Origin: Aurantiochytrium sp. KH105 | Lineage: Eukaryota > Sar > Bigyra > Thraustochytrida > Thraustochytriidae | Direction: 5' to 3' | NCBI GenBank assembly: GCA_003116975.1 | Contig: BGKB01000179.1 | Span: 1,439-65,438, forward strand | Length of the DNA stretch: 64,000 nt | In this document: one piece after another, positions 1 to 54,859 of the stretch | Position numbering within the stretch: position 1 is the first letter of the stretch | Layout: every line of letters starts with the position of its first letter | Position numbers and translations under genes: made by a program | Notes under the pieces: model-generated | Told to the model about the DNA's origin: nothing | Seen by the model: the letters and a program-made list of their open reading frames with translations, nothing else | The model's database searches: none

Positions 1-176
1 CTTCCCGCATTTCCTTCCCACAAAAAAAAAAAAAAAAGCAAAAACCCTGCCCAGTTCCACCACCGGGATGTGGAACCAATCCCCCCCCCCCCCCCCCCCC
101 CCCCCCCATCTCATCTTCAACCTCAACTCTAACTTTCTCTCTTTCAATTGATCAAAAATTGATTATTGGATTTCTT
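1..176. other. 3' flank of the giant gene with homopolymer runs
   Basis: No gene is visible. The stretch holds a 16-A run (22-37) and a 27-C run (81-107). It then becomes pyrimidine-rich up to the stop codon of the giant minus-strand gene at 177-179. Long C runs recur between genes in this window (41790-41806, 54645-54655), so they seem to be a habit of this genome and not a one-off. Their exact lengths are probably unreliable. Confidence 0.7.
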
Positions 177-3100
177 CTAGAACCCAAAAATGCCACCCTT
201 GGCCTTCTTCTTGTTCTTTTTCCTCTTGCGCACGAGTCCACCACCGCTTGGCAAACGGCCCTCCGCGGCCATTCGTTCGCGGCCCATCTTGAGCCAGCGA
301 CGCATAATCGCCACCGATGCGGGGCTCAGTTGCATGCGCCGACCTGCAAAGGCCGTCGCGTTGGCAAGCTTGTCGTCGTCCTCGTCATCATCGCTAATCT
401 CAGCTTCGCGGATGCCCAGCGAGACACCTCGTTTCCGTGCAGACGCCTGAGCTTTGTGAAGCCAGTGCATCATGATCGCGCGTGATGCTGCCGAGAGAAC
501 AACAGGTCCGAAGATTGCTGGCTTGGCCGGCGCGTCTCCAGGGAAATCACCAGGTCCCGCAGGCCCGACGCCCCCGTGCCCTCCTCGTGCACGACCTCCT
601 CCCAAGCCAAAGTCGCCGCCACCAAGCTTGAGCTCGTCGCGATGCCGCTGGACACAGGGCAAGCACAAGGTGCGCAGCTTGGCGTGCTTTTGGAAGAAAT
701 TCTTCCACGCGACCTGATCGAACTCCTCGCTCGGGTACTGGGCTTCAAAAGCATCTCCGAGTTTCTCAATGGGCGTCAAAAGCTCGACCTGAAGCTGCTT
801 GCGGCTGAGACACTGCTCGCACTCCGATTTGCGCGCCCGATTAATGAGCGCTTGGACCGCAGCGCGAAGGGTGCGCCGTCGCCGTGCTTGCGCAAGCCAA
901 AGTCTGATAATGTTCCGCGACGCATTCGTAAGCGTGACGGGGCCGAACTTGGGCCGGCCGTCGTCGTCCTCGTCGTCCGAAGAGACATCAGGATTAACGC
1001 TGCCCAAAATTTTGGTCAGCTGCGCAGTCAAGTACGGCCGCGAGCGTCGCAGCGTGCGCGGCGTAAGAATGTTCGGCAGCTGCGCCACAAGCCACGGGCG
1101 GTTGTAGTCGAGAAACTTGTGTCGAAAGGTTTCGCTCGTGATTTTTTGGTTCATCAAGTACGCTTCGTGAGATGCACCCTTTATCTTGTCGAGCTCGTCC
1201 CAGCGCGGAGCGCCCATGTCATCTTCGTCCAGAGCGGTGTGCCATGCCGTATTTTCGTGTCGCAAGCTCCACAGACGAATCTTATCCGCTGCACGTACTG
1301 CGCACCGCCGTACAAACATGCAAGAGAGAACTGCGTAGGGCACAATGATAAGCAGCGCAGGGTCACCAAAGGCATTGTAATCCGTGCGCAACATAATCTC
1401 GATGCCAAGTACCATAATGATGATGCCGGCTGCATACGTGCAGCAAATCATATAGTATTGGCTGCTAAAGCACAACTGGTCCACAGTTCGCATGGTTTCC
1501 TCAATGCACTCATCAAGCGTATCCTCAAATCCCTTCCAGCGATGCTCTCGCTGAATAAAGCGATACCGCGTGTACGTAAGGTAGTCGTAGATCTTCCACC
1601 CGTGAAAGAGCTCTTGCGACTGCAGGATGAAGATGTCAGCCATGGTCTGGAACCCAATAAGAATAATAGAAAACCAGAGGTAGTACTCCATATCCTGGTT
1701 GCGAATGCCGTACAGATTGGGCAGGCCAATCTGGTCGCGAAAGACCATAAGAATGACAATGAGGAACGGCTGAAAGTATAAAGCAAGCACCTCGGTGGAG
1801 AAAGACATGTACGCGTTCAGGATGGGTTCCACCGTTTCAGATGACTCAAACTGCTGCTCAACCTCTCTCTTGCCCTTGGCGTTCGTCGGCGGAGGCGGCA
1901 GCCCCTTGTTCACGGCCTTCTCCATATCCTCTGCAAGCTTCTTCTTGGCAGCCAATTCGTCCAGCTCAGCAAGCTGTTGGTCTAACGTTCGGCCCAAGTG
2001 AAGCTGTCGACGAACAAAGTCTTTGGTCTCAAGAACGCGTTGCCGCACCACAAAGAAGAAGTGGTCCTTACCAGGATCCCAAAAGACGCGAGAGAGAATC
2101 ATCAGCCCATTGTTGATGACGTACGCTACCACCATGTCCAAAAAGTTGTTGGCGCCAAACGTCACAAGCCCCTGCACAAGGTCAAATGCAACGTTGTGCG
2201 GGCAAATCAGAAGCGATTCTTTCAGCTGACCCTCCACCCAAATGTCGTAGATGATCGACACGAACTTCATAACGAGGATAAAGTACCAAATGATCGAGCC
2301 GTATTGATCCCAGTAGGAAAACTCGATCAAAAAGATGAGAAACACCGTCAGCATCAGCGATGTCGCAACCATGTTACTCCGCTTCCACATCGTCGGTTTC
2401 CAAATGCTTCGCTCCCGCGTGTGGTGGTCTCGTGTATCTTCGTAAAGTTGCTCCTCGATCGAGACCCGACGCGGGACGAATGCGCGTACACTCAAAAGTA
2501 GAATGTAGAGTGCCACCATCACAAACGCCAGGCCCATGCGTCCCGAACGCGTCACGTCGACCTCTTCAGGCAATACGTCCGACTCCATATAGTGCTTTGG
2601 CCACGTTTCCAAAAAGAAGGCCTCGGCAAGATATTCCTCTTTGGCCTCGGCTTCCGCCTCGGCCAGCTGCACAGCCGTCAGATTGGCAGCGTTCTCGATC
2701 GTCAGAGGAAACACCATCAGACTCAGTTCTCGAATGGTTTCGCCTCCCTCGAGCACCAGCCAGCATAAACCGAGCACGCAAGAGAGGGGCAGCGCCGTCA
2801 GGCCTACGCCGACGAGAGGCCCTGGCGTTGTCAGTGCCATGTATGAAAAGAAGCGGAAGCGAGGGGGGCGCTCTAGATGCGTTGTCACGCGATTGATCGC
2901 CCAGAACATGCCGGCAATCAGAACGGTGAAAATGCCAATAAAGACAAAGAGGTTGATAAACACCTCGCGCTGGAAAGCAAAGTTGACAATCAGATCGTAG
3001 TATCCCAATGCCCGAAACTCCACATTGAGTTGAAAATCAGTCCTCGTCTCGTCATAATCAAAGTCGTCGAGCACCAGAGCAATGTAGATGAGTCTCTTCA

Positions 3101-6100
3101 AATCCTTGTTCACTTGGTAGTAGTGCATCTGCAACGTCGCAGAGCGAGGAAAACACTGCCGGCCACACTCTGTCGACATGAGATCTGCCGCGTCGCGATT
3201 GACCTCGAGAGGAATGAGCCAATCCGTCGAGCCCTCTTCCACAAACTGGTCAACGAATCGACCACCGTGAAGAAATTGCTCCACAGTCAGAGGCTCCCAA
3301 ATGAACTCCAATAGTGTTGTACCCGACGCTACCTCAAACCAGCGAGGTGTGAGGTCGCGCGAGGTCAAATCTTCCTCATATTCGCACGTGATTGCTCTCG
3401 TGCAATAGTCTGCGATGGGCTCGCTTTCCAAGAATGAGTACGGATTGACGACACGAATGTTGTCGTAGTCCGGGAGCGGGGCGTAGCTATAGCGTTCCCA
3501 GTCTGTAGGAAGTCGATTACCGTCCTCGTCAAACAGCGGAAGCTCGCACTCAGAGGACTCGAGCAAGTCCCAGATCGTCATGTATGAATCGAAACCACGA
3601 CAGCTCGAGAAAAAGGGGAGATACGGAAGCACCACCTTTTGAAAGGTGAACTTTAGGTCCTCGTCTGCTGCTGTGGTGTCCATCTCATGGAAGATTTCGC
3701 GATACTTGAGAATCATGTCGCGCGTCGTACTCACGTCGACGTCAGGTGGATTCCACCATTGCTGATCTGTCGAAAGTGTGTCGTAGCCCTCAAGAACGTG
3801 CGTCTGGTCCCCGACAGTATTGTTGAAGCCAACAAGGACGCGTCCTTTGGTCGTAGTCTCGTAGCGGGGTGGCATGTTCAGCGGTGGGGAGACGCTTGTC
3901 AAAGTATCGCGCCGAAAAATTGCACCAAAGATGTACTCTTGTGAAACCTCAGACTCTGCAGCGCTTACCACAGGGCTCAGCCGGCGACGTTCAGACAACG
4001 CCGACTCAATGTGTCGCGTCGAGTTGCTGCGTTCTGGGCCATAAACCTGAACTACTGCCGTGTCTTCGAACTGCGGAGTCAACGAGCTGTACATTCCGTG
4101 AAGAATGTGCACTTCCACCCGGAATAAGACGTCTTCTAGAGCAACGAGTGTAATGGCAAATTCGGAAGCCTTGTCGACCTCGTCACTCAAAAACCACGGG
4201 CTTAGATCGATCGGACGGTGGCACGGGTATACTTCGAGCTCCTGGCCAATGGCGCAATTTGGGTCCTCGGCGCACTCTGCCTGAGTTGAGACCGTGTAGC
4301 GCACGCGATCCGAGTCACATCGCTCCTCCTCGCATGTTGAATTTGCTACGAAGATGGCAAGTCGATAGTGCTCTCCGTACACAAGATCATCGGGAAGATG
4401 GGCAAAGTCAAAGGTAATTGTTGCCTTGTTGAGGATGGGAAGCATGAACCACGATCGCTCTGCATCGCGAACGCCCTCCTCGAGCTGGAACCTCTCGATC
4501 CGAGAAGCAAAATCGTCCCAGCTGACGAGTTCGTCCTCCCGCGATGTCCACCAGGAACTCGTCATCTCTTCTTTAATCTCCTCGTACTCCGCGCGCGATG
4601 TTGGAATGCTCTGCTTGACACCATCGACCACCAAAAGACGTCTCGAGGTTTGCGGATAGCTCGTTGAGAACTCTTTATTAAGCGGGCTCAGGTCAATGGC
4701 ATCTCCAATACAGTCCAGGTGCTCGGCTTCTACGCGGTTCAGGTCCAAGGTTGTTGTCTCGCCCGATGAAAGGTCTGTGGTGCCTTCGGCAAATGCAAGT
4801 GAGGCACTCGTTTCGCCATAAAAGACTCCATCATTGGAGACCGAGACGCTAATGTACGCCGCCATAGCCTTGCCGCCAAAAGTCGCGCGACTCGGCAAAC
4901 GACATCGTACCCGCGTCGAGCTCTCATATACACCGGGAACGTGCAGCACGTTCTCACCCCGCAAGGGCGGGTCGATGCCAGGAAGTCCATTCTCGAGGAC
5001 AAAAGCAGTGCTCTCGTGATCAACCACGGAAAACTTGCACACCAATGTGGCAACGTCAAAAAAGTTGCGACCAATTACCGTGAGCATTGTGCCACCCACG
5101 GCCGGAGCTTGAACAGGGCAGATGCGCTCCACGTGGACGCTATCGTTTCGCCACAATGGAGAAGATGCACTCTCGTCAACAATGAGCACCCGCTGCACGA
5201 CCTCCACCTCAGCTTCGATGTTACCCAGCAAAGATGACCCCACGGTGGAGTCAAAGGTCTCCTCCGTCCCACTTATTGTAGTGTACGTGAACTGGGGAAC
5301 GTAGATCTTACTCTGCGTGTACCAGCCCCATGTTCCGTGAGACCGCGTGCCAAGTTCCTTGTCGCAGACAGAAACGCCGGCAATCTCGCAGGACGTGAGA
5401 TTTGCAGAGCCAGAGATCGTTGTTGTACCTCGAGGGCACCGGGTCCTCATACTTTCGGACGAGGCTGTACCCGGCGGGCAAAAGTAGCCTGCCGAGCACT
5501 TGTTTCGCTCCCGCAGATAGCCCTTGGTCCCGCGCTCGCAGATGTTTCCACTCGGACAAATGTTGGAAAAGACGTCCTCCGGAATGGTAGCCTCATTTGT
5601 ATAGTATCCCGCTGGGACCTGATGTTCGAATTGGGCCGAAGAATCCGTTCCAAGAGGGCACACGTGGCCCGAAGGACAAGCTGTGCTTTGCGTCAGATTC
5701 GACATGGCCTCTACGCCGCACACTCTGGAACTTGGACACGGCTCGCAAAGCGAAATGTCTGTAGCCCCGCGCATCTGATTCCATGTACCCATAGGACACA
5801 GCTTGCAAGTGATATCATCCGCAAGCGATCGGTAGGTACCTGCAGAACAAATAGTAGGCTCGTACGTGCCGTACCCCTGGCAAGCGAAGCCAGCAGGACA
5901 TACGCGGCAGACTGTACTTGAATTCTGAGGCGCATATGTTCCAGGAAAGCATAGCGTCGGAGCAATCGAACCAGTGTCGGTGGACATCGTACCGATCGGT
6001 GCTTGCGTTGGGTAGTCAGAGCCTGGGGGACAGTAATGTCCGCGATGGCACGCCCCTGTGCCGCCCGGGGTAGAACTCGCCCATTCGCAATACGCGCCTT

Positions 6101-24100: not shown

Positions 24101-27100
24101 TTGTCCAAAGTGCAACTTCCAGACGCAAGTGTGCTCCCGTCGAATTACGCAAAAGTGGAAGAAGAGGTCCACTTGTGGGAAGCGTACACGAGACGCGTGA
24201 GCCATCTTCGAGAACCACCGCTCGCGACGTAATATGCGAAGCCCACGACTGTCCGGGGACACGAAAGAGGCACGAGTCAACAATTCCAAGATGAAGACCA
24301 TGCCCGCGCACCACCACGGACGTTCCAGGCCATCCCAGGCGCGGTTCAATTGATTCAATCGCAAGTGCTTGCTCGGTATAGGCGAAGGAGCAAGCCTGCT
24401 CGAGATTTGAGCAAAAGAACTGGGCGCCACCATTGACAGATAAGGTCAATCCCACCTCCTCGCCGGCCGGGCCTGGGGGTGCAATGCACTCCACAAGATG
24501 GGCGCTCAGAAGACGTCCTGGGACAATGGTGCTTCCAAAACGGCATTGCAAATCTGTTGGCTTGCTCAATGAAGCCATGCCAAATCCATGTACAAGCACT
24601 GCTGTTCCACCCGCTGGGCTGCCTTCCGAAGGTTCTGTGTGGGTTACGACAGGCATCGGGGTGACTCGAAAAAAGGGCGGCGTTGCGGCAAGCACAGAGC
24701 GCGACTCGCCACTCTCCAGGACATAGCGCAGATCAATCTGACCGGAAGACCCTAATGCGAGCTCATATGGCACTTCACACACGATCCCAGTTGACGCAAG
24801 AGAAGGCCAAGCGGCAGTCTCTTCCACATCAGCGCCCGATATGTCCATGAAGACACAGCGGAGGGAGCTCACGACAGCAGGTGGGAGACCGCTCGCGTTT
24901 GCACCAGAGACAAGAATTGATGAGAGCTCTCCCGCAGGGGAAAACCAGCGGTCTGGCACCAATTCTTCCACCTGAAGAGGTTGCAACAGGACGGGGCCGG
25001 CTACGGGCCCTCCATAGGTTTCCCCATCATCCACTGAAAGGCTAAGGCTGATTGCGTGGCCAGGCCAAAGACTTAACGCGGATCGTAGAGAAACTGGTAT
25101 ATGGCATCTCAATGCATCGACACCCCTGATTTCTGCTTGCGTAGTTGCCGTCACGTTGCCAACCGAAAGTCTGCACAGGACTGTTGAAGGACTCTCAACG
25201 TCCAGGACTGGATGCTGAAGACGCGCGTCAATGACCGCCTCTGTGCCAGCTCCAGCTACAATATATGCCGGGAGCAGCGTCTCAATCGTTGGCTCCGTGA
25301 CAAAGTCAATCGTGCACGCGTTCTCGTCAATGCATTGGCCTACAGGTAGGGAAACGAGCTTGTTCCGATGCGAGACAAAGACCTCCACGCCGGATGTGCT
25401 GGCCAAAATCGCTGGCGACAGACACTCGGCAAGGTTTGACTCCACAAGCTGCGCATGTACCACGTGCACTATGCCAGAAATGGGTTCGCGAAAGACGCAC
25501 GAGAAGAATAGGGAAGCGACAGCGTTGGCAACGACGAGTTGTACGGGGCGGCCGCCTCCTACAGGAATGACACGCGGAGATACCTTGAGTACGCGCAGCG
25601 GCCTGTGCAGCGCAAACACAAGACCCGTGTCAATGGAAGGACTTGAATCAGATAAACCTTGGATATAGACGGGGTAAAGCCCAGGGCTCTCCATAGCAGC
25701 TGGAAAAGGGCAACGAAGTTCGCTCGTCGATGCGTCAAATCCAAGCGCCGGCAATGCATCATCCTGGCCAAAGCGACACTGTGCAGACGACCAATTCTGC
25801 GCTGCACCTGCAGCAGCTTGAATTCGGATATCGCTTGTCTCATTGTCGCCGATGACGCCATGCCCTGGAGATATGTCCAGAAAAATTGGTGTGGTTGATC
25901 CAGCGTCCAATACAAATGGTGTGGCAATCCACTTGACGAGATCGACAGAAATGGAAAGACTGAGATCGCTGGGGTCGGCTGCAATGGGGACGGGACAGGA
26001 AACAACGTCGCTTGTCAGCGGCGTACACGATTCGTAGACAAGACTTCCGGCAGTCCCAAACGCGCAGAAAAGACCCGGAATATCGCCCAGGCCCACACCG
26101 GTAAGATTAACAATTGAAGTGCCTGGAAGAACCGTTGTCGGACTCACGGAATCTACGCTGGGCTCCCGATACAATTCGATTGAAACTGGGTCCACATTTA
26201 CAAGGTTCCCAACGAGGCCAACGGACACAGTCTCAGTCTGCACAAGAGCGCTGCTGAAGACCCAAGACGCGGGCATGATGCAGCGGACGGCAGCTTCCGA
26301 GATCCACGTGGCCTGTGTACGCGTCTCGCGACTGCCATGCGCAAAGAGGCAGCCTGTTCGATAAGAGTCGTCCTCGAATCCGATCGAACGATGCAAACCA
26401 CTCCCGTAGATCATGAGAGACTGCGTACTTGCATTGCTTTGAGAAGCTATGACGACTCGTGGCAAAGCATACAGTAAGATGGGGTCTGCGCGAAAAAAGT
26501 AACGACTTGCCTCAGTGCCTTCGATAATTTCCGCCCCGTTGAGCTTAGCACTGACACTTGCCAAGCCTTCTTCGAACCGGCTAGGCGCAGTGCAATCGAG
26601 ATAAATCGTGCTGCTGCTCTCTTTGACAATGAGGCCCTCCACTGTGATCGATTCCCGGTCGAAGTGAAAAGTGCACTCCCCTGTATCGCCGATCGCTGCG
26701 AGCTCAGACTGTGAGAACGCCAAGGATGCTCCTTTGCTAACAGAAACGCGGACGTTGGTCTCTTTGCCGAGCGGACCCTGGCGTGGGAGGAGACCAGAAA
26801 TCACGAGAGGCTCAAAAGACGTGAAATTGAGGCTTGCCAATGTCCTGTTGTGAAGAAGAATTCGCAAGGGCATCGTTTTGGCTTCCAGCATAGAAGGCAC
26901 CAAGCACGATGCTTGCGTTGAAGAAGCCACATAGACTGTGCTGCGCTCAGCCTCTGCACCAAAGACACACTCAAGGCCATCTGCAAAAGTCTCAAGATTT
27001 GCACCTCGAAACGAAACCTCGTATCCCCCCCGACGCGTACCCCAAAGCTGCGTCTCGGAGTCGTGAATGACGGCCGCCTCGACGACATCGAGCACCCCGT

Positions 27101-30100
27101 CTTCCCAGAAGAACACTTGCTGGCGATTGACGACGAGCGATAGATCGACCTCGCCTGGCCCGGAGATCACCCCGGGTGGAACGACACACCAAGCGTGAGA
27201 GCTTGAGATGACGTTGGCCGGGGCATATGCAGTCGAGCTGTCAATCGAAAAGGCGCACTCGAGGCTTCCATCCTCGAACCCAAAGTTTGCACCATGAACA
27301 TGAATTGCGTCCGCGCCGGCAAGTCCAATTGTTGTAGGAAAGACGGTAGCGATTTGCGGCGCAGCGTAGAACATAAAGGGAACAGCGTTAGACCACCGAT
27401 CCACCCCATTCGTCAGACGCACAAACGTCGCGCCACCTTCCGAAGAAGAGGCGTTACCTGGCATGGCCTCGCAGTGTAGTTGCTGAGTTTCACGTGACAG
27501 TACAACCGGGGTGCGCGCTTCAGGGCCTCCAAATTGACACCACCACCCCGTGGCGTTATCGCTCGCAGCCAGCAAAAGTTGGTCGAGAAGGACAGGCGCA
27601 GAAAGGGTCACCGAGTTGTTTTGCACGAGATCGACGCAAGCACGCTCCGGGGACACCTGCTCAAGAGAAGGTGTTGCGCCCGCGTCAAGGTCCATCATGA
27701 CGTCAATGAAACGAACAGAAGGGCGCTCTCCATGAGCGCCCGAGTCGATCGTAAGTCGTAAATCGTCGCCTCCATTGACGCCCGATGGCCTTGCGTAGAC
27801 AAGGCTTTCAAGGCCGGCGTTGATGTCTTGCAAAGTGCCGGAAAACTCCATCTCGACATCGTTTGCTCCAGAACCCTTTGCAAAAGCGAGACCCGCGGCA
27901 CTGCCAAGTGTCACAGTGGCAATGCCGCTCGTGACGAAAACGTTGACCGTGTACTCGCGAATACCGTCCGCGGTGTGACTTGAAACATCCATGTCTGAAA
28001 TCGCGTATCCGTCGAGTCGCAATGCTGTAGCAGCAGGAATGACCACGGTGGGCGGGTCGTTAACGGAAAGCACATCAATGGGAATGATAACCTCATCCGT
28101 GAGCTCACTGATTGCGTCTTTGGGGGAACCCACGCCGAGATCGCTCACGAGAATCACGAGACTTTCCTGCAATACTTGAGAATTCGAGTCTGGATCTCCA
28201 CGATATCTAATTTCGTGCAGTGCCGCGTTCAGGGCCTGCAAGGTGCCAGTGAATGCCATGGACCTATCACCGACGCCGCTTCCCAAAACAAAATTCAGTC
28301 CTTGCGTTGTCGCCAAGGAGATGGAACCCCCAGCAACCGAAAGAGAAACCTGAAAAATGGGTTCGGCACCGCCAGAATTCTCAAACTCCCAGTAGTAGTC
28401 CATGTCCACATCATGAACGGTGACGCCATAAATTGCGATGGTCTCATCCTCATCGGTGGTCTGGTCGCTCGGGACGGACAAGGAGGGCGCGTCATTGACG
28501 GCTTCGACAGAAAGACGAATCGAACGCGATGCCGTCTGCGCGCCGCCAAGGCCGAGTCCGGCGTTTCCCTGGTCACTTACTGACACCGTGATTGTATCCT
28601 CGCCATGCCAGTCGAGATGACCTTGGTACACGAAGCTTGCTAGGGCAAGGTTCACCTCGTCCAGTCCGCCCGTGAAGACGACGACCTGATCGCGATCACC
28701 AGTTCCCGTCGCAAACGATACGTCTTCGATTTGTGCATTGTCAAGTGTAATGACACCATTGTTGGCCTCAATAGTGACTGCGAAGACAGAGTCTGGGCTC
28801 AAAGCCGCGTCCTTGTCAGACACACGAAAGCCAGCAATACGCCGCGAACCATCTTCGAGCAAGTCAAGCGTAATATTTTCGCCCTGCTGGATAAGCTGCA
28901 CTTGCGTTTCCTGGTCTGGTGGCTCATAGTGGACCTCTGGGGCCTGATTGAAGGCATGATATACGGACATCAACGCAGCGCCCCCTCCAAAGCCATCGAG
29001 AAGTTCTTGCGCCGTTTGCCAAGATATTGCCGCGTCGCCACCCTCTTGTCGCCACTGAAGCTTGATGACGTGTGTGCCGGCAGGCATGTTGAGCAAAGCG
29101 CTTCCGCGCATGGTATCTGTGATGCGCACCAAGGCGTCTTGAGAAGCGCCCTTGCCGTGTACAACCTTACCGTTGACGACAAGACGAAGAGAGAGCGCGC
29201 TCCATCGCTCCCAGGTCCAATAGTCCATATCGGGTCTCCCAAGTTGAGAGGTCGTGAGCGAGAAGCTGACGTGGACCGTGCTCGTTTCGCCAACAAGCTC
29301 AAGGGTGTTGCTTGCTCCCGGAATGTCGAACCATCCATCCACATCCGCGGAGGCATCGCGAAGGGCGATCTTCGTCTTGCTGAGGGTTGCCTTGTCGAGT
29401 GACCGCGTCAGAACTGCGGCCGTGTGCTCGCCTTCAATAATGAGACTACGGCCCGAAACAAAGCCACCAAACATTGAAGGCTGCGAAAGCCATAGAGGCA
29501 CGGTGCTGCCCCATTTGCGCCACTGCAGCTTGACCACATGTTGTCCCGCGGAAAGGGGAGCGAGAATATCCCCGTTAAGAACGGCGGATCGATATGTCCT
29601 TGAGATTGTGCGGAACATGGCGCCGGATTCTCGGTATGCAACACCATCAATGAGCAGACGTGTTCCGAGCAAATCGGCTTCCTGGAGCACATCGGCATTT
29701 GGCGCAGATTGCGGCCTCACCTGAATCGCGTACAATAGGTGCATCGTCCATTCCCGTGGAAGCGTAAAGCTTATGGTACAGTCGGGAACGTCGACCCAAT
29801 CGTCGGAGGCGCTGCTAATGCGCGCCCCGGTGAGAGGCTGTGCCGTATAAAAGAATTTGTGACGAGCCTTGACGGTGACGGAACGCGATCCGCCTTGGCC
29901 GCGAAGGAGCGTGGGTCGAATGCTCCACGTGCGTACTCGAGACCCCCAGCGGCGCCACTCGAGCGTTGCTGTGTGTTCGCCTGGGCCCAAATTTGCCACG
30001 GCGTGGCCCATGAGGCTCGCGCGATTCTGCTCGAACGAGGAGAGCGGATTTGCATGTGATCCGGATTGTCTAAAGGGAACGCCATCAATGACGATGCGCA

Positions 30101-30620
30101 TGCCGAGCACATCATCGTCCTCGGACCACCCGAGCGCGTCTGCACCTGGCTCGTAGGCCTTGTCTGCAATGACATTGGCCGTGTACGTGACGCGCACGGT
30201 ATATTCTTTGTCCAACAAAAAGCTCACCGTGGTGTTCTCAACGGCCTGCCACTCAGGTGCGGCATCTTGGCCCAGAAACGCGCTGCTCGTGGGCTCCACG
30301 CTCCACAGCAGGCCGTTATCGAGGCTCCCTGCGCCCTCGCATCCAAGCACAAACGCCAGCATCAGCAGCAGGGTCCCGGCCCGCCACCCTCCGAAGTGTC
30401 CCAGTTTTTCCCGTCCCACGCCCTGGGGACGCAGCCTTGGGGCCGCATGCTTTTCGAGCGCATTGGTAAAGATGCTCCTTTCCCTGTCCTCTCGCTTCGC
30501 GACGTCCATCTTGTGCGTCGCCAGGGCCCGGTCGCGCTTGGTCGTCCCGGCCCCTCGCGTGCCCTCGCCGCACTCGCACGAGCTACCGTTCGAGGGCATC
30601 ATCATCACCATCTTCGCCAT
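177..30620 (-). CDS. Giant TIG/IPT-repeat, cysteine-rich, multi-pass membrane protein (about 10,147 aa)
   Basis: A single uninterrupted frame of more than 30 kb ends in TAG at 177-179. The open frame reaches a TTG at 30809. The first ATG is at 30620, with more at 30611-30597 and another at 30509. A hydrophobic segment (around 30377-30340) ending in a CEG-A-like cleavage site suggests a signal peptide or anchor, with an unusually long N-region from any of these starts. Order of parts: three related beta-sandwich-like modules, three VNDAP-type cadherin-like repeats, about 66 TIG-like units, a GCC2/GCC3-like cysteine-rich stalk, one more TIG, a juxtamembrane ectodomain, about ten membrane segments, and a cytosolic tail. 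TIG repeats also occur in fibrocystin and PKHDL1, but I see no G8 or PbH1 regions and the C-terminus is multi-pass, so it is not an orthologue of those. A surface or flagellar receptor/adhesin is likely. The ligand is unknown. Confidence 0.93.
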   Translation of the reverse strand: MAKMVMMMPSNGSSCECGEGTRGAGTTKRDRALATHKMDVAKREDRERSIFTNALEKHAAPRLRPQGVGREKLGHFGGWRAGTLLLMLAFVLGCEGAGSLDNGLLWSVEPTSSAFLGQDAAPEWQAVENTTVSFLLDKEYTVRVTYTANVIADKAYEPGADALGWSEDDDVLGMRIVIDGVPFRQSGSHANPLSSFEQNRASLMGHAVANLGPGEHTATLEWRRWGSRVRTWSIRPTLLRGQGGSRSVTVKARHKFFYTAQPLTGARISSASDDWVDVPDCTISFTLPREWTMHLLYAIQVRPQSAPNADVLQEADLLGTRLLIDGVAYRESGAMFRTISRTYRSAVLNGDILAPLSAGQHVVKLQWRKWGSTVPLWLSQPSMFGGFVSGRSLIIEGEHTAAVLTRSLDKATLSKTKIALRDASADVDGWFDIPGASNTLELVGETSTVHVSFSLTTSQLGRPDMDYWTWERWSALSLRLVVNGKVVHGKGASQDALVRITDTMRGSALLNMPAGTHVIKLQWRQEGGDAAISWQTAQELLDGFGGGAALMSVYHAFNQAPEVHYEPPDQETQVQLIQQGENITLDLLEDGSRRIAGFRVSDKDAALSPDSVFAVTIEANNGVITLDNAQIEDVSFATGTGDRDQVVVFTGGLDEVNLALASFVYQGHLDWHGEDTITVSVSDQGNAGLGLGGAQTASRSIRLSVEAVNDAPSLSVPSDQTTDEDETIAIYGVTVHDVDMDYYWEFENSGGAEPIFQVSLSVAGGSISLATTQGLNFVLGSGVGDRSMAFTGTLQALNAALHEIRYRGDPDSNSQVLQESLVILVSDLGVGSPKDAISELTDEVIIPIDVLSVNDPPTVVIPAATALRLDGYAISDMDVSSHTADGIREYTVNVFVTSGIATVTLGSAAGLAFAKGSGANDVEMEFSGTLQDINAGLESLVYARPSGVNGGDDLRLTIDSGAHGERPSVRFIDVMMDLDAGATPSLEQVSPERACVDLVQNNSVTLSAPVLLDQLLLAASDNATGWWCQFGGPEARTPVVLSRETQQLHCEAMPGNASSSEGGATFVRLTNGVDRWSNAVPFMFYAAPQIATVFPTTIGLAGADAIHVHGANFGFEDGSLECAFSIDSSTAYAPANVISSSHAWCVVPPGVISGPGEVDLSLVVNRQQVFFWEDGVLDVVEAAVIHDSETQLWGTRRGGYEVSFRGANLETFADGLECVFGAEAERSTVYVASSTQASCLVPSMLEAKTMPLRILLHNRTLASLNFTSFEPLVISGLLPRQGPLGKETNVRVSVSKGASLAFSQSELAAIGDTGECTFHFDRESITVEGLIVKESSSTIYLDCTAPSRFEEGLASVSAKLNGAEIIEGTEASRYFFRADPILLYALPRVVIASQSNASTQSLMIYGSGLHRSIGFEDDSYRTGCLFAHGSRETRTQATWISEAAVRCIMPASWVFSSALVQTETVSVGLVGNLVNVDPVSIELYREPSVDSVSPTTVLPGTSIVNLTGVGLGDIPGLFCAFGTAGSLVYESCTPLTSDVVSCPVPIAADPSDLSLSISVDLVKWIATPFVLDAGSTTPIFLDISPGHGVIGDNETSDIRIQAAAGAAQNWSSAQCRFGQDDALPALGFDASTSELRCPFPAAMESPGLYPVYIQGLSDSSPSIDTGLVFALHRPLRVLKVSPRVIPVGGGRPVQLVVANAVASLFFSCVFREPISGIVHVVHAQLVESNLAECLSPAILASTSGVEVFVSHRNKLVSLPVGQCIDENACTIDFVTEPTIETLLPAYIVAGAGTEAVIDARLQHPVLDVESPSTVLCRLSVGNVTATTQAEIRGVDALRCHIPVSLRSALSLWPGHAISLSLSVDDGETYGGPVAGPVLLQPLQVEELVPDRWFSPAGELSSILVSGANASGLPPAVVSSLRCVFMDISGADVEETAAWPSLASTGIVCEVPYELALGSSGQIDLRYVLESGESRSVLAATPPFFRVTPMPVVTHTEPSEGSPAGGTAVLVHGFGMASLSKPTDLQCRFGSTIVPGRLLSAHLVECIAPPGPAGEEVGLTLSVNGGAQFFCSNLEQACSFAYTEQALAIESIEPRLGWPGTSVVVRGHGLHLGIVDSCLFRVPGQSWASHITSRAVVLEDGSRVSCTLPTSGPLLPLLRNSTGAHLRLEVALWTKAGERAESDLMMDLIETPRLNLASPAFGPSAGRTLIRVHVSANLSALAIPDLVCEVGGIRTSFHIVNQSTFTCTSPALDLVEASELSFDAGEASVAVRVALNSVNYVVAHGRFHFIPTIVLESAAPTEVVVGLTEAIHVASSSSLHGLWRVLAQVGFDAVVCQFTSEGGDSMVRAPIFMQSGMSAFGCQIPSAWNHSGIFDEEEWWTLHFENGETGEELSTRLAIQMIATYPSQLTVTPGTVSEGGSITVSGSNLRHTASMQCGFGDPLLAVSEASFDAESGTLRCLVPARIANQIARGSVTAQETPVRVSLNGHDFSALKESPIVQVVKSRGDSQTSTDAAEIRLDSLEPGVGDLAGGTTIRVHGKGFLLFETSLRDLDPRCIFFSDDARANFAEVSKRAIIDDDSQMSCTTPNHGVAGDVKVRVAFWENDMGHYGVASYTFAPRPEVFRVQPSSVEEGTASVSFRVFAHGIIGSPSLRCHVGDGVIVPGYLSSDGHSVLCSAVQMPQLPWGASASSFVVSLSNSANEITQDPLLAQTIFLHAPFTLSGLAPSHLTSGIGEVLEIRGENFVPASDIACLFGETYFHVQAQYVSSETLTCELPPHLLLPGVYEVSLSMNGGSSTLQAGSGIEMNVTVLEPAASMSLQASEPSSGPASGGTLLHVPLDTSTLLDVPVACSFRLSEDLGVAVTVNAEVIHANGEVTCLTPDGTLAWRTEQFPQHAEVEVQVVATGQVLATTAFTFLADVVILDIRGPSAISTRGGASVVVRGTGFDQAGAVPVCSFAVDGVEDWSASVTQGTLVPGSLDETFHLVCPVPPAPDSALGATPLLSISMNGGADFSSPLPAGFILAEPAVTHSVHSEAIILDALSQVLWPNALIVNGENFTETSAQVCYFEGATPAFVEAFAVNSTQVICEMPLSWQSSFDTVKGSSVSVLANDGESIDASTGVPLQISPFPHLSGVNPRVVSPEGGTQISLQLPSPDQYDGGLWSCVFRCGPEDTFVGHTRVLSNWTCTMPSLPDLQRGLGVAFPCSLGLASVQDDESTLAFESNRERLPLWAVDVPQLDAGLRSRRQFVDLSFNHSRFIAVSLETDPGLLHFGANVEVHCRYTLSSDATASYSVIGTIGADWDALQCPLPGLDFVKEQLSLGVWDFAQDGLHLDVSFNGVEYSSSALNITFLPLSSLSFSSSTEEAISTRTLWGARGARTEVVLALDVTTRDLAATLLSPLEEDLSLSCRFGGREAVAASFDMDIGALVCPVPSSLFATRQEPNSNLSVEVSLLTDPGSFVDTGLTLRAPSNPFRIVDLRPIAGPLEGGTRITLTMEGAGLVEAQATSSSTFLVCVFTLPDGFEVESNATGSMDEEEVTSVVCDTPEVSMPQDAFVSVRLLHTETQRDVLVQEPSAGIVVFRYAALPQVFAVEPSLLQIQSTGVASSRVLTVQGADFVSDGSNQTRCAWFKASVEEDLAIEGAFLTPATVLSSTLLQCAVPAELLMYEQSYSFKLHVSGNGVDLSSSSAILSVVPEMSAAALRPSMGSQTGGTVISVLGRNFLANLPYICDFYAEDGSSFVAREAAVFESSSSLRCRTPHFASPGTMAVRLHAYLPDGSLSWVAQDVPLLFEALPHLVASAATPAWASPDEAFVLRIELSSGTADSLRSRLGAETSGTQFIVRAQVGDVYGTCQASLLRDANILLHCEVPACTQGKCAEPSAQVSLQLSDEEDLEPVFLQHAGSVHVVRTPQAALHRGKDIQIVSALSSTVVDIRGAGFADVETLGCALCDENLERCVTSLQVLRRSSSVVSCEIPQWASALEDVASLFTAARLYVRNDMRALQSSDLSQSLVGANFVTVKIIGPVSLLEMDPMHPTPGQLLRITVSKVPSDVPVSCDFGDVQSAAMILSEHLISCVVPMRLGEAAVAQEDLSVRLLFGAAGEARRVASEGSVIRLRGPRSLLSGETGIVHATLEPPSGPTGGGTRITFEIGDLEFEEPVKGVQCQFTRESGAMNATLVEAEVDLIASVITCVTPSVSEAGIARVAVLARETGIALASGSFVFRPIPFIARALTKIVASPALPGSTVDLLGSGFSSGPLHCVYSSHPCTMGTEAVTHVAADGEVYSATRASCGVPQDLHDRLGVGSPVFICVSIDHGRTLAASQAEIDLAPLWDIDHVAPNAVFRGTAEKPTFFHVKGRNFPAQTQLYCIFDDENAIVEPASYVNQSLVLCRLPRELLQDARETSQYVLRISSRDNQYESLSRTQVLQVHDLPQIDFVGLGKCSEPSMLCGLFSIVTSEGVVLNKLRCQTAQGSPLYSEVRNETEGYFACALPVKETTAGLRVSLNDSVQWFAVHIPLEAWQPAPTVDRMSPLLLPKEDASLVTFHGDGFSMDKSYACAFQGRAGEATAIVESATSVRCVVPEASNETEAAHALVEVTLHQKTPFREFYSGQAAMFHQPRIGSTEPWEVPFGKAWAPIEIVGSGFFPSADLACRVESPFRGARVLPATYLNASTVRCTLPVVPETRIGEFLRVGIAENGESFVHASSSIKIVPGVHGVSISSTEILVQRATGELSFELHVPSADSFRFDAASDNPYCALTTFEDDGQELLHELNTEILSPLRVRCFGTWSHSHLSDQSSLQASVELAPRFPAQSVQRVLNEINVLLAPVLTTALTSRRIQVGDESARFRFTGRGFRENTTYVCLLSRQDVEVHSSWSFTEQAVVHGKNELSCSLRALEEPGLYRIALAHEQDEKPIYTLDGSFHATIKAGPAMRLHAIEPSFAMDKSDEAVKIHGSGFEGSASTFCDWSSEDGRFRVSTRAAVLSSLLLECASPNWDPALPPGAARDIKLRVRSDAGDTREATSFTLLAAPVVTRLEPHAGPMSGGTPIRIWGSFYAPEDSITRPDVFCVFEGHTDPIPATLLSLREVICVAPAHVQGDASDAVRVSVTYGPGQSHGPASSAMYTFVEDLTIDSMYPLMGTVHGATSLRIRGHHFETHDLLSCAFTFPDGDRYVTTGAYESETQIRCVTPRVASGGNARVSVSKNGVDFVALESDYFSFHAPVTILEVFPSQGPASRETLVQITGTNFPRSPTMACGFNYARVSATWINANLVECTSPTVTSTGRVSLRLYTNGVDEIPVGHFVFTPPVTVERVSPRVGPAQGGTEISFVLSDTRTGQTDAQEPVELDDLHCEFVTSLYTAHVPAHENGDRTWSCKVPPKRQLGNEITVETRLVAREDQVLHTFAYEYHPEMFVRKVWPQAGNRRAGQTTLQVIGEGFVKALDDETYTCEFENNGELHATSARWLGTSLLACTVPHELGPGTHSIRVSMHDGQIPERVANDHKLSFQVLDGLDINRFAPHSGPFSGGTIVSIHGQNFGQVATGEAMCRFGDLGDAKASVVGGQEIRCAVPPAGWDVEDNEVAVQLSISVDREHFQHVGEFWYRHVPQLVHLDPEEGPSIGGTAVTISGAHLSGQGANLTCKFGNQVVQGEVLSPGEVRCVSPPAEDLTEGRVLARLSSNGGADLSSNALVFTYTSPPQILGMDPHIGPIQGGTRLRVKGHAFRQDYLLECVFSRNNASSASEVHQMHVAAQFVSSSEISCLVPQIQGAATSVSLGVYARGQPLPRVCSAQELVFIPYEMNSDGPLSPTRGSAYGGTQIIVPLVTSVDEAQPQVRCRFGSSRSSPGRITHMSLRSFGYRRMQIACISPLWSLSEGESEREVPLFVSLNAGVDFHHFVGHEFTFVSPSADVEMWPLLGPASGGTRLKFYNVGAKAGVALACRFRSLGDPAGPVKEAVVETVEVNETSGTRASLVHECIAPPASQDTLAIVELVEENSLLLLHRGRFVYQAALHLTPDGISPSSIARFSERTVFRIRGEGFHVMNTLMCSFFDPITLEEVARSSAHLETENSASCALIPPATTPWDRLEALDVCISGNGGADKVCERIQLVEPLEVLDVSPEHGRVSGGSVVNVNFVWGGSSRSFAQGFAFVCRFGQVVVEAAVVNSTQAGSIQRLACVAPAVLAAETVDFAISYDGETFFQHAEKQSFRYFDDLEGSKVFRVTPETGRSSGNEEIRLSGIDHPSQVTTCGFVAFPDGARPLAQVAPHAFDEDAVYCMTPAIEPKVDTEQQPTRLVVSYDMGRQWSASSRGPMFTVYAVPTVQAVKPESVFAETNSWIDVYGSGFAEMSRADRRLTCLFEDPLQTGSQATLSSVASIISRHHARCKTPTNLAAGKVYLVRMTNTNRGQDLFGFAELKVLPQLELWSVSPALVASHSAQPHFVRLSMVHTNHLAGSPHRYALSCEFESTNGWRSEVPAAVEEGMDSVTCRLPFVPQAEDEVWPRALRVKLRSSLVPGASISIPLEGLLLEVFEPLDIASIEPSIGQLRGGTEVRLSLDAPLHSRLDGQIYCSFDWIGGDNPLEHMNVARRAMTSRATFDESLTVATCLTPDFAADDDELGRSLANRTVWVGLSMREGSAGYVQQQWSLNRKVFLATQQAFLRSLHPSRGNVYGGTLVTLRGQGLPGSGQLVCKFGNTHQVLARRRSASVVECVSPSFADEGPQTVRVGLFLDGDTAETFVEYDTLLRPLEFHFEDLPRVQSVSPQRVSVLGGDLISLVGVNFPFDSSRALQVWCRFGGVLRVPATVLSTTEATCRTPSNVASLGNFSTPVVVSVELSSGNGHEFASIGADGPVLVEVVDSATIESISPRFGSVYGGTALQVVGTNFYGEKVCTFQLNGEKNEVLQVAAVVRSSSLLECVVPPRTCDRVKYALVTLDGVASRETLRFDYVREPALHDVSPGAFHVLGGATLRIEGSDFRQEAETLRCEFTDVPTSATASDAALPGSAMTEIVEATFVSSERVECEVPASHVSVTTTLVRVTNNGQEFSNALSLHRWWRATFDQGPHPAGGSVEGGTQTRLVLAERTARSLQSGHVVCMIGDIITRAIVNVASRVISCEVPPSAGQTKQVVPISISFDAGHHFSATGFAYAYLLAPEIVQVYPENGDFVGGSEVEIDLASVDPLFTRFRLLNLAGEGGDLCTVTSAVGNTRHIVCSLATTEDDSATAQLYHLQAEGETGEVLRAPIYRLRHAPRPIVTRLEPSAAYTQGEVEITVTGHDFVNSDALACKFGSDSDLVPGYYVNSELVRCTAPAHAVGSVIVEVTNNGVDFSDSALVLNYINAPQIFSLRPAHGPMDGGTWVEITGIDMHLFSSTSAVCKFGDVESFTMEVVNSTLVRCLSPPGPARALSASVPLELSFVDGHGLGAFSTFGERFTYLQRPTVKGVFPAQGPTDGGTEVRIAVRHLHIAAARDANSLWCKFGNAESTPARLVASHETRGDWGQDADISILACSSPPRHDDLASNAQVLLQISQNGGVDFTSSSTVLFAYTGGARASITSILPRSGPAQAGGTVLVLRGTGFQDASSLACRAGDSGLVAARFVSDTEIHCRMPPARRASDLSEGVVVSMTNNGADFVSSGERFVYYSDPSVHDVVPRRVLSEGRVPLMVRGHNFVNSTTLSCLFGEDFKVPATFISSRLLSCEMPTLRPQDPDQLLVRVSNNGRDLTTSQIFLRVQRGALPGSYSQQGSLLSAPNGTIVERPGESNFTLCSPGSFQPRSGQTSCLECPIGYFCPDFGLSKPVACLEGFVCDRLGLRAPYDACPAGHFCARGTKTTSLTAFQTSAKAHGQTPVRPYFEGLTEDMWTRSAISGRLQLIWASLLPEWSISRRAAAATGFSSLGHGAGPGYVLNENEASDVDVVFRDAPVSESPQVCPAGTFCRSGVASASPQTFNFSTPQQCHDGFFCPPGSSVPSGSGACPSGHYCPTSDGALEAIPCPSGAHCPGVGNLKPVDCFPGTFNRFEGQSNCTVCPVGHVCPGWGRTEPEICPAGFVCYTEGLSTPIIQCPAGYFCEEGTLTLIRPDHVDAADVACMPEPADADGAALSPQVDTPCLEHNLTLVRAELLDMLASTLSPTYLQVEMAALRPLPCAPGTFCLGGVAHNTTIDWVPDTPEGAEAPQTCTEGAYCEWASSTPGGTGACHRGHYCPPGSDYPTQAPIGTMSTDTGSIAPTLCFPGTYAPQNSSTVCRVCPAGFACQGYGTYEPTICSAGTYRSLADDITCKLCPMGTWNQMRGATDISLCEPCPSSRVCGVEAMSNLTQSTACPSGHVCPLGTDSSAQFEHQVPAGYYTNEATIPEDVFSNICPSGNICERGTKGYLRERNKCSAGYFCPPGTASSESMRTRCPRGTTTISGSANLTSCEIAGVSVCDKELGTRSHGTWGWYTQSKIYVPQFTYTTISGTEETFDSTVGSSLLGNIEAEVEVVQRVLIVDESASSPLWRNDSVHVERICPVQAPAVGGTMLTVIGRNFFDVATLVCKFSVVDHESTAFVLENGLPGIDPPLRGENVLHVPGVYESSTRVRCRLPSRATFGGKAMAAYISVSVSNDGVFYGETSASLAFAEGTTDLSSGETTTLDLNRVEAEHLDCIGDAIDLSPLNKEFSTSYPQTSRRLLVVDGVKQSIPTSRAEYEEIKEEMTSSWWTSREDELVSWDDFASRIERFQLEEGVRDAERSWFMLPILNKATITFDFAHLPDDLVYGEHYRLAIFVANSTCEEERCDSDRVRYTVSTQAECAEDPNCAIGQELEVYPCHRPIDLSPWFLSDEVDKASEFAITLVALEDVLFRVEVHILHGMYSSLTPQFEDTAVVQVYGPERSNSTRHIESALSERRRLSPVVSAAESEVSQEYIFGAIFRRDTLTSVSPPLNMPPRYETTTKGRVLVGFNNTVGDQTHVLEGYDTLSTDQQWWNPPDVDVSTTRDMILKYREIFHEMDTTAADEDLKFTFQKVVLPYLPFFSSCRGFDSYMTIWDLLESSECELPLFDEDGNRLPTDWERYSYAPLPDYDNIRVVNPYSFLESEPIADYCTRAITCEYEEDLTSRDLTPRWFEVASGTTLLEFIWEPLTVEQFLHGGRFVDQFVEEGSTDWLIPLEVNRDAADLMSTECGRQCFPRSATLQMHYYQVNKDLKRLIYIALVLDDFDYDETRTDFQLNVEFRALGYYDLIVNFAFQREVFINLFVFIGIFTVLIAGMFWAINRVTTHLERPPRFRFFSYMALTTPGPLVGVGLTALPLSCVLGLCWLVLEGGETIRELSLMVFPLTIENAANLTAVQLAEAEAEAKEEYLAEAFFLETWPKHYMESDVLPEEVDVTRSGRMGLAFVMVALYILLLSVRAFVPRRVSIEEQLYEDTRDHHTRERSIWKPTMWKRSNMVATSLMLTVFLIFLIEFSYWDQYGSIIWYFILVMKFVSIIYDIWVEGQLKESLLICPHNVAFDLVQGLVTFGANNFLDMVVAYVINNGLMILSRVFWDPGKDHFFFVVRQRVLETKDFVRRQLHLGRTLDQQLAELDELAAKKKLAEDMEKAVNKGLPPPPTNAKGKREVEQQFESSETVEPILNAYMSFSTEVLALYFQPFLIVILMVFRDQIGLPNLYGIRNQDMEYYLWFSIILIGFQTMADIFILQSQELFHGWKIYDYLTYTRYRFIQREHRWKGFEDTLDECIEETMRTVDQLCFSSQYYMICCTYAAGIIIMVLGIEIMLRTDYNAFGDPALLIIVPYAVLSCMFVRRCAVRAADKIRLWSLRHENTAWHTALDEDDMGAPRWDELDKIKGASHEAYLMNQKITSETFRHKFLDYNRPWLVAQLPNILTPRTLRRSRPYLTAQLTKILGSVNPDVSSDDEDDDGRPKFGPVTLTNASRNIIRLWLAQARRRRTLRAAVQALINRARKSECEQCLSRKQLQVELLTPIEKLGDAFEAQYPSEEFDQVAWKNFFQKHAKLRTLCLPCVQRHRDELKLGGGDFGLGGGRARGGHGGVGPAGPGDFPGDAPAKPAIFGPVVLSAASRAIMMHWLHKAQASARKRGVSLGIREAEISDDDEDDDKLANATAFAGRRMQLSPASVAIMRRWLKMGRERMAAEGRLPSGGGLVRKRKKNKKKAKGGIFGF
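180..1130 (-). other. Cytosolic tail: CxxC pair and three ASxxIMxxWL repeats
   Basis: The tail of about 300 residues has three copies of a short helical motif: FGPVTLTNASRNIIRLWLAQ (about 893-950), FGPVVLSAASRAIMMHWLHK (about 455-513) and MQLSPASVAIMRRWLKMG (about 285-343). Between the first and second lies a pair of zinc-type knuckles, CEQC (about 811-824) and CLPC (about 655-666), with a WKNFFQKHAKLRT helix before the second. Gly-rich and acidic linkers separate the parts, and the protein ends in a Lys-rich stretch. The repeats look like binding sites for one partner. I do not recognise the partner. Confidence 0.7.
1310..2970 (-). other. Multi-pass membrane region (about 10 segments) with a cytosolic coiled coil
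   Basis: By eye the hydrophobic stretches begin with FINLFVFIGIFTVLIAGMFW (about 2900-2965) and continue with PLVGVGLTALPLSCVLGLCW, GLAFVMVALYILLLSVRAF, VATSLMLTVFLIFLIEF, SIIWYFILVMKFVSIIY, FLDMVVAYVINNGLMILS, LALYFQPFLIVILMVF, YLWFSIILIGFQTMADIFI, YMICCTYAAGIIIMVLGI and ALLIIVPYAVLSCMFV (about 1320-1380). A charged helical stretch around 1900-2040 (LAELDELAAKKKLAEDMEK) lies between the sixth and seventh. The family is not recognised. The overall plan (cysteine-rich ectodomain, then a multi-pass bundle) recalls meckelin-type proteins, but I see no diagnostic motif. Confidence 0.75.
4790..5131 (-). other. Isolated membrane-proximal TIG domain
   Basis: A canonical TIG unit (residues about 8497-8610) starts with CPVQAPAVGGTMLTVIGRNF and continues with a CKF, an RCRLP strand and a final SNDGVFYG turn. 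It is separated from the main array by the cysteine-rich stalk. It is followed by about 600 residues of unrecognised ectodomain before the first membrane segment. Confidence 0.8.
5310..7397 (-). other. Cysteine-rich GCC2/GCC3 (ephrin-receptor-like) stalk
   Basis: Residues about 7740-8440 contain many C-P-x-G-x-x-C and C-x-x-G-(T/S)-(F/Y) motifs, such as CSPGSFQPRSGQTSC, CPIGYFCPDFG, CPAGHFCARG and CPRGTTTISG. This is the GCC2/GCC3 or EphR-like cysteine-rich pattern, expected to be disulphide-stabilised and extracellular. One insertion of about 110 residues with no such motifs splits the first third. The stalk lies between the TIG array and a final isolated TIG. Confidence 0.85.
7425..27689 (-). 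other. Array of about 66 TIG/IPT-like domains
   Basis: Residues about 980-7730 repeat at roughly 100-residue spacing. I counted about 66 unit starts by eye. The pattern is P-x-x-G-x-x-x-GGT near the first strand, then G-x-x-F, then a C-x-F-G, then a V-x-C-x-x-P, and often an N-G-x-D-F motif before the next unit. The two cysteines per unit (CxF and CxxP) could form an intra-domain disulphide. Units nearest the membrane are canonical (for example PAHGPMDGGTWVEITG), while many in the N-terminal half have lost GGT and keep only the two cysteines. TIG folds are immunoglobulin-like, so the array would be a very long, possibly rod-like spacer. Confidence 0.88.
27690..28952 (-). other. Three tandem-95 / cadherin-like repeats of the giant protein
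   Basis: Residues about 555-980 form three units of about 145 residues. The linkers VNDAPSLSV and VNDPPTVVI are the classic junction motif of tandem-95/VCBS/cadherin-like repeats, which usually bind calcium. Each unit carries a G.G..D....F.GTL..+N.AL....Y core (for example FTGTLQALNAALHEIRYRG). Such repeats dominate giant bacterial adhesins and also occur in some protist surface proteins. They sit between the N-terminal modules and the TIG array. Confidence 0.8.
28965..30317 (-). other. Three N-terminal beta-sandwich-like modules of the giant protein
   Basis: Residues about 100-550 (counted from the ATG at 30620) contain three related blocks of roughly 150 residues. Each has a hydrophobic strand region, a 'LIDGV.(Y/F)R.SG' or 'LVVNGKV' loop and then a 'G.H...L.WR..G' strand: GEHTATLEWRRWGS, GQHVVKLQWRKWGS and GTHVIKLQWRQEGG. 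The G-x-H-x-V-x-L-Q-W-R signature resembles jelly-roll domains of extracellular and tail-fibre proteins. I cannot name the family. They form the membrane-distal tip if the C-terminus is in the membrane. Confidence 0.65.
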
Positions 30621-54460: not shown

Positions 54461-54859
54461 TGATCTTATCAGGGCATTGGGTTGTAATGTGTCGTCAGAA
54501 AAGACATGGCAATGAACAACAGCAAGGGAAGGAAATCATGAACATCATAAAATTATACAGTTGGTAATAAAGCCCGAATGCCTTTCTCTCTCTCTCTCCC
54601 TCTCTCTCAGAAACGAAGTCTGGCATTCGTCATCTCCGCCCACTCCCCCCCCCCCTCTCAAAAAATTAGAAGTTGTTCTCCATCCTGTACGGAAGACAAG
54701 AACCGACAAGAACAACCAAAAAAAAAGACGGTCCTTCGCCCGGGGACCGGTCTATCGGATACAGCAAACCCTGATTGATTGATCGATCGATCGATCGACC
54801 GACCGACCGAGTGCCTTGGCGCGCGCGCGCGCGTGTGTGGTCAAGGTACAGAAGGGAGG
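54461..54859. promoter_or_regulatory. Intergenic region with TC, poly-C and GATC-type repeats
   Basis: About 400 bp. Contents: a CTCT tract (about 54584-54610), an 11-C run (54645-54655), a GATT/GATC/GACC tetramer tract (54772-54811) and an alternating GC tract (about 54819-54834). The tetramer tract ends 48 bases before the next ATG, so it is in the probable promoter or leader of the SAM gene. Confidence 0.5.

Follow-up and report, generated by a model that had tools for sequence, protein, structure and literature searches.

A 10,147-residue putative adhesion receptor with a TIG rod and a multi-pass membrane part in Aurantiochytrium sp. KH105

A single uninterrupted open reading frame of 10,147 codons plus a stop occupies positions 177..30620 of the minus strand (ATG at 30620, stop at 177) in a 64,000-nucleotide stretch of contig BGKB01000179.1 of Aurantiochytrium sp. 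KH105, which is referred to below as the window. We propose that its product is a giant adhesion receptor located at the cell surface, with a membrane part that acts as a transducer, a reading of the sequence that we hold at slightly better than even; the surface location, the disulphides, ligand binding and the relay of force or signal are what we infer. A second giant gene in the same genome encodes a paralogue with the same predicted membrane part and a different tip, and the pair defines a membrane domain recognised by none of the libraries searched. To our knowledge, proteins of approximately 10,000 and 12,000 residues would rank among the largest membrane proteins known. Attachment and surface sensing in labyrinthulean cells are little understood, and a paralogue pair carrying one engine and unlike lectin-like tips makes surface recognition open to direct testing.

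The genome assembly comprises 76.0 megabases in 367 contigs with both haplotypes present, and half of that size is close to the 39-43 megabases published for four thraustochytrid strains, in a paper whose own strain was suggested to be diploid (PMC5924542). The gene is also present on the second haplotype, contig C53 (10,145 residues from the first methionine), where it is adjoined by the same divergent neighbour, and the stretch containing the start of that neighbour is 96.5% identical between haplotypes over 1,607 columns. The alleles have 9,771 identical residues over 10,145 aligned codons, and their sole insertion or deletion is one of two codons close to the start. The 1,086 allelic base differences fall at codon positions 1, 2 and 3 in numbers of 222, 161 and 703, and when segments of 150 codons are slid along the gene, the third position varies strictly more than either of the others in 194 of 200 (not so in the other 6). 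Since Tandem Repeats Finder reported no DNA tandem arrays inside the frame, its length is not due to repeat assembly. Chance and artefact are thus ruled out as the source of the frame by the second haplotype, the third-position excess and the absence of DNA tandem repeats. Repeat mis-assembly, a pseudogene, or chance read-through fusing several genes would have in its favour the unconstrained look of codons 1-95, which is limited to those codons, and against it these same observations, the matching flanks of the two alleles and a paralogue that is intact on two haplotypes; we regard its probability as negligible. An earlier note, made from the sequence alone, had described one unbroken frame of about 10,150 residues kept by purifying selection. 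Both statements hold, the second as measured between the alleles (ratio of nonsynonymous to synonymous substitution rates, dN/dS, 0.185 for the whole gene) and with codons 1-95 excepted. The note had also called such a frame exceptional for a eukaryote, a statement that is now weakened: the size and architecture are remarkable, but a single exon is not, because long open frames are common in this genome. They include a dynein heavy chain frame of 4,568 codons, polyketide-synthase-like frames of 5,708 and 5,831 codons, and frames of approximately 4,400-4,700 codons for further membrane proteins with TIG or cadherin domains.

The start codon is doubtful because codons 1-95 are nearly free of constraint (dN/dS 0.72 between alleles). 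Translation may in fact begin further downstream, with M38 as a candidate, or within an upstream exon, and the long N-terminal extension (residues 1-97, window 30330..30620), which leads into a signal-peptide-like hydrophobic stretch (approximately residues 76-100, by hydropathy alone, peak 1.64), may not be fully translated. The frame stays open 5' of the ATG to a TTG at 30809, and would give 10,210 residues if counted from there.

The domain order given in the earlier note, i.e., N-terminal beta modules, cadherin-like repeats, TIG domains, a cysteine-rich stalk, an isolated TIG, a multi-pass bundle and a repeat-bearing tail, is right, with the cadherin-like assignment weak. The tip (residues 98-560, 28941..30329; all features of the giant are on the minus strand) consists of three tandem beta-sandwich modules that are similar to one another (z 10-35) and have a predicted TNF/C1q-like fold of the TNF-like lectin kind. 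No C1q or TNF Pfam family matched them, and they show no similarity to the N-terminus of the paralogue (z -0.3 to 0.8). Their only genomic matches were the window gene itself and the allele on C53; genome searches here scored the best candidates only, and all match counts are therefore lower bounds. A tip profile run against PDB sequences gave five weak matches (best E 0.022), each to a tRNA methyltransferase and covering 32-45 profile positions, which were judged spurious. Trimers of three chains are habitual in the C1q/TNF superfamily; the giant differs from the TNF-like lectins of that superfamily (the BC2L-C N-terminal domain and PLTL) in its low identity to them (11-13%) and in having three modules in one chain, an arrangement that, on the predicted fold, suggests a possible intrachain pseudo-trimer. 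The following region (residues 561-990, 27651..28940) is weakly assigned to cadherin-like beta repeats, with Cadherin_4 at 15.1 bits (cut-off 25.1) and tand_rpt_95 at 16.7 bits, under its cut-off of 90.

The TIG array extends over residues 1015-7717 (7470..27578) and contains 60 units recognised by a self-profile; Pfam TIG, TIG_plexin and TIG_SUH and NCBIfam CoaZ_rpt_PGGG also match the region. Pfam TIG (PF01833) scores 264.1 bits in one half of the protein and 449.5 bits in the other against a cut-off of 20.9, and CoaZ_rpt_PGGG, a bacterial-type repeat, is above its cut-off inside the TIG regions. The self-profile, seeded with 17 Pfam-matched TIGs of the window protein and iterated on that protein and the paralogue, recognised 61 units in the former (the isolated one included), 65 in the latter and none in one shuffled copy. 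Gaps in the array could hold approximately six further units, which makes the figure of about 66 in the earlier note a fair one. All 61 units contain at least two cysteines. The cysteine-rich stalk (residues 7731-8450, 5271..7430) has 51 cysteines in 720 residues and matches Ephrin_rec_like (PF07699, GCC2/GCC3 type) at 33.8 bits (cut-off 23.1). It is followed by the isolated membrane-proximal TIG (residues 8497-8601, 4818..5132, by the self-profile) and a membrane-proximal ectodomain without a family (residues 8606-9205, 3006..4805), which is partly kept in the paralogue (33.3% identity, 288 aligned of 506 residues from 8700).

The membrane part (residues 9206-9790, 1251..3005) is a predicted multi-pass bundle of approximately ten hydrophobic segments, obtained by merging by hand 12 overlapping hydropathy peaks between residues 9210 and 9770; the segments themselves lie between 9212 and 9771. 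Six charged residues inside the segments (E9433, K9452, D9495, R9511, D9662 and D9753) are identical in the paralogue, and identity to it is 31%, 31% and 41% in three span groups and 22% in the long loop. The N-terminus is probably outside and the tail inside, provided that segment 6 (9484-9514) does not fully cross. No Pfam family reached its cut-off in the bundle; a match of EPV_E5 to one span (E 0.014) was judged spurious. The bundle had no match among PDB sequences, and a two-sequence profile gave a single hit at E 2.3. A single-sequence AlphaFold2 model (predicted local distance difference test score, pLDDT, 40.5; predicted template modelling score 0.25) was too poor for a fold search. 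The bundle query gave eight matches in the genome, each lying within one of the two giant genes or an allele of one, and no separate protein made up of the membrane part was found there.

The tail (residues 9791-10147, 177..1250), which is probably cytoplasmic, contains two CxxC pairs (9934 and 9986), as does that of the paralogue, and repeated LSxASxxIxxxWL helices near acidic runs, two of them found by regular expression (9897 and 10098) and a third, at 10042, by eye. At E below 0.01 the tail query matched only the two giants and their alleles; of five weaker matches (E 0.014 to 1.26), two were second stretches of the paralogue and three lay at unrelated sites. Between alleles, dN/dS is 0.12 in the tip modules, 0.20 in the cadherin-like region, 0.23 in the TIG rod, 0.04 in the cysteine-rich stalk, 0.04 in residues 8451-9205, 0.06 in the bundle and 0.02 in the tail, the most constrained part of the protein. 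With the tip conserved, the rod changing faster and the neck, bundle and tail highly conserved, the pattern suits a receptor whose head does the binding and whose rod provides reach, the shared tasks falling to the membrane end and tail.

The paralogue, on contigs C36 and C17, has approximately 12,250 residues from the first methionine (open frames of 12,341 and 12,336 codons) and is intact on both haplotypes (dN/dS 0.181). The two giants have in common the TIG array, the cysteine-rich stalk, the membrane-proximal part, the bundle and the tail; the best blastp stretch has 25.6% identity over 1,577 columns, and identity reaches 41% from the last spans into the beginning of the tail. An isolated TIG after the cysteine-rich part was not recognised in the paralogue by the self-profile, its last unit (9255-9337) lying before that part. 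The tip of the paralogue carries two Laminin_G_3 stretches (91.5 bits). By sequence, then, the comparison suggests that the paralogue keeps the membrane engine and swaps the head.

We propose the following mechanism. The head of three TNF/C1q-like beta-sandwich modules, nearest to sugar-binding TNF-type lectins and possibly folded as a one-chain pseudo-trimer, would bind a glycan or protein ligand, and a disulphide-stiffened rod of at least 60 TIG modules with the cysteine-rich neck would hold it off the cell. A TIG module is approximately 4 nm long, and on that assumption the rod, if extended, would measure perhaps 0.25 micrometre. Binding or pull would be transmitted via the conserved membrane-proximal domain to the bundle of approximately nine to ten spans, which, as a channel or other transducer, would relay a signal to the tail, where the CxxC-pair module and the repeated helices might dock a cytosolic partner. 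The sister protein would place a different lectin-like tip on the same neck, bundle and tail. In its fullest form this would be a new protist receptor family, with a one-chain TNF/C1q-type pseudo-trimeric lectin head, a disulphide-stapled TIG rod of about a quarter of a micrometre, an unclassified multi-pass transducer and a sister with a laminin-G-like tip; we offer that fuller version tentatively, well short of even. If true, it would describe a sensor with a long reach and exchangeable heads, directed at surfaces or cells.

Several observations weigh against the receptor proposal. In the Pfam scans neither the bundle nor the tail matched a known family of channels, G-protein-coupled receptors (GPCRs), kinases or cyclases, and the bundle could be a mere anchor. 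The topology is based on loop charges and one glycosylation sequon at 9313, and hydrophobic peaks as strong as the signal-like one occur inside the TIG array (at approximately 1700, 2916 and 6182), with another of similar height at 8822-8840. The structure model of the tip is of moderate confidence (pLDDT 63.5), Foldseek alone places phage tail fibres and C1q-like proteins above lectins, and likeness to a TNF-like fold, itself a prediction, is no demonstration of sugar binding. N-glycosylation sequons number 54 in the ectodomain (5.9 per 1,000 residues) and two in the tail (5.8 per 1,000); the densities being equal, sequon counts were dropped as evidence of topology, and for that reason we lowered our confidence in a receptor slightly and raised that in an anchor.

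A purely structural anchor or tether, in which the rod would fasten the membrane to scales, wall or the surface of the ectoplasmic net and the multi-pass part would anchor it without signalling, is to us rather unlikely. It accords with the lack of a catalytic or channel family in the bundle and tail and of a PDB sequence match, and TIG arrays and cysteine-rich stalks are often structural; yet for an anchor one span would do, whereas the giant has approximately ten segments at dN/dS 0.06 with conserved internal charges, and its tail is the part under the strongest constraint (0.02). A role in recognition by the flagellated zoospore or by mating cells, with the head binding either the surface coat of the flagellum or a partner cell, would be suited by two paralogues with unlike tips, and the genome does contain cilium genes (a meckelin at 590.8 bits and a kelch-TIG dynein heavy chain). 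However, the tip is better conserved than the rod (dN/dS 0.12 against 0.23), unlike fast-evolving mating proteins, and this role appears improbable. We give a similarly small chance to the membrane part belonging, too remotely for sequence methods to show it, to a known multi-pass family (meckelin, polycystin/TRP, adhesion GPCR, TMC, anoctamin or OSCA). Meckelin (TMEM67) has the same order of a cysteine-rich extracellular part and then a multi-pass bundle, and the best hhalign match to it, though insignificant, falls just before and at the first span of both proteins; against this, no Pfam family scored above its cut-off in the bundle, and the giant has no sequence similarity to meckelin above shuffled controls. 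As the parent of the membrane part meckelin was rejected at sequence level: hhalign probabilities were 0.1-0.2, against 0.3-0.5 for comparisons with the unrelated bundle of contig C25, and among eight local or end-free alignments to two meckelins (the genome's own and the human one) the best z was 1.87, with 10 of 200 shuffles as good. The shuffles keep local composition, and positive controls gave z 18-48. The Meckelin profile (PF09773), at E up to 0.1, matched contigs C20 and C131 only and not the giants, and the cysteine-rich part of the genome's own meckelin was seen.

The giant resembles fibrocystin (PKHD1) and PKHD1L1 in being a giant surface protein with a TIG/IPT array. Those proteins have G8 and parallel-beta-helix regions and a single span, whereas the giant has approximately ten hydrophobic segments, a cysteine-rich neck and another head. 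When residues 100-10040 were scanned against Pfam at E up to 1, no G8 was found and no beta-helix family reported, in agreement with the earlier note, although the genome encodes G8 proteins elsewhere: G8 was matched at 13 places, none within the giants. Frames of 1,011-1,553 codons contain 11 of the 13, and the G8 proteins are on contigs C320, C360, C142, C104, C113, C127, C313, C21 and C68 (loci L030 and L031). Polycystin-1 and the very large adhesion GPCR ADGRV1 join a very large adhesive ectodomain to a multi-pass membrane part, as the giant does; at profile level, its Pfam scans at E up to 1 listed no GPS/GAIN, REJ, PLAT, PKD-channel, 7tm (7tm_2), TRP or polycystin family. Further TIG membrane proteins are encoded in the same genome on C25 and C71 (4,717 and 4,716 codons) and on C90 and its kin (approximately 4,400), with a cadherin and/or TIG ectodomain, a cysteine-rich part and a multi-pass end as in the giant. 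These are shorter, and the C25 membrane part shows no relation to the giant's by blastp, hhalign or the shuffle test; C90 was set beside the giant by eye and domain scan only. They form part of a second TIG or cadherin-TIG group (loci L032 and L025/L026, contigs C49, C128, C134 and C71) of approximately 4,400-4,700 codons, in which the multi-pass ends of C25 and C90 after the cysteine-rich motif look alike by eye and unlike that of the giant. The earlier suggestion of a distinct class with a channel- or transducer-like membrane part thus stands for the distinct class and the multi-pass part, which the paralogue has in common, and not for the channel or transducer nature, since no Pfam cut-off was reached and no PDB relative was found.

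TIG-type adhesion proteins in protists are already known in print. TIG domains occur in choanoflagellate and filasterean GPCRs (PMC3251606), a gene-expression table for a marine heterotrophic flagellate classes its IPT, G8 and Fibrocystin-L entries as either cell adhesion or signalling (PMC7852580), and a dinoflagellate has fibrocystin-L homologues (PMC4860509). A proteome study of Aurantiochytrium limacinum tentatively puts forward ectoplasmic-net candidates, describing their roles as speculative, and its main text does not mention TIG or cadherin (PMC12221091). The titles and abstract beginnings of the literature matches listed contained no description of a TIG-GCC-multi-pass giant in stramenopiles. 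Two scans of the viral_contigs collection and one of genome_contigs found no relatives of the giant, but these collections hold viruses and prokaryotes and have little bearing on eukaryotes; homologues of the gene in other species are likely.

Just downstream of the giant gene, at window 81-107, is a 27-nucleotide poly-C run that has approximately six residues in C53, so its length varies between haplotypes. On the other side, the divergent neighbour (31551-35000, plus strand) encodes the N- and C-terminal domains of RMC1 (regulator of MON1-CCZ1) in one frame of 1,149 residues and is followed by an SPT5 gene at 35292-38255 (minus strand). Frames of 1,417, 853 and 414 residues at 43965-48218 (minus), 51899-54460 (plus) and 54779-56023 (plus) matched no Pfam family at E 0.001, and an open frame at 59502-62420 (plus) has PDZ and RhoGEF domains. 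Elsewhere in the genome, the first part of the dynein heavy chain frame on contig C47 (L033; 4,568 codons) was read and has N-terminal kelch, TIG and filamin modules; a dynein frame of 4,527 codons on C33 is presumably its allele. A PfaA-type polyunsaturated fatty acid synthase is present (E 1.4e-278), its N- and C-terminal parts on different contigs and each piece under the family's curated cut-off. The genome also has a fused CrtI-CrtB frame of 1,318 codons; a fused CrtIBY is described for five of five thraustochytrids in PMC5924542.
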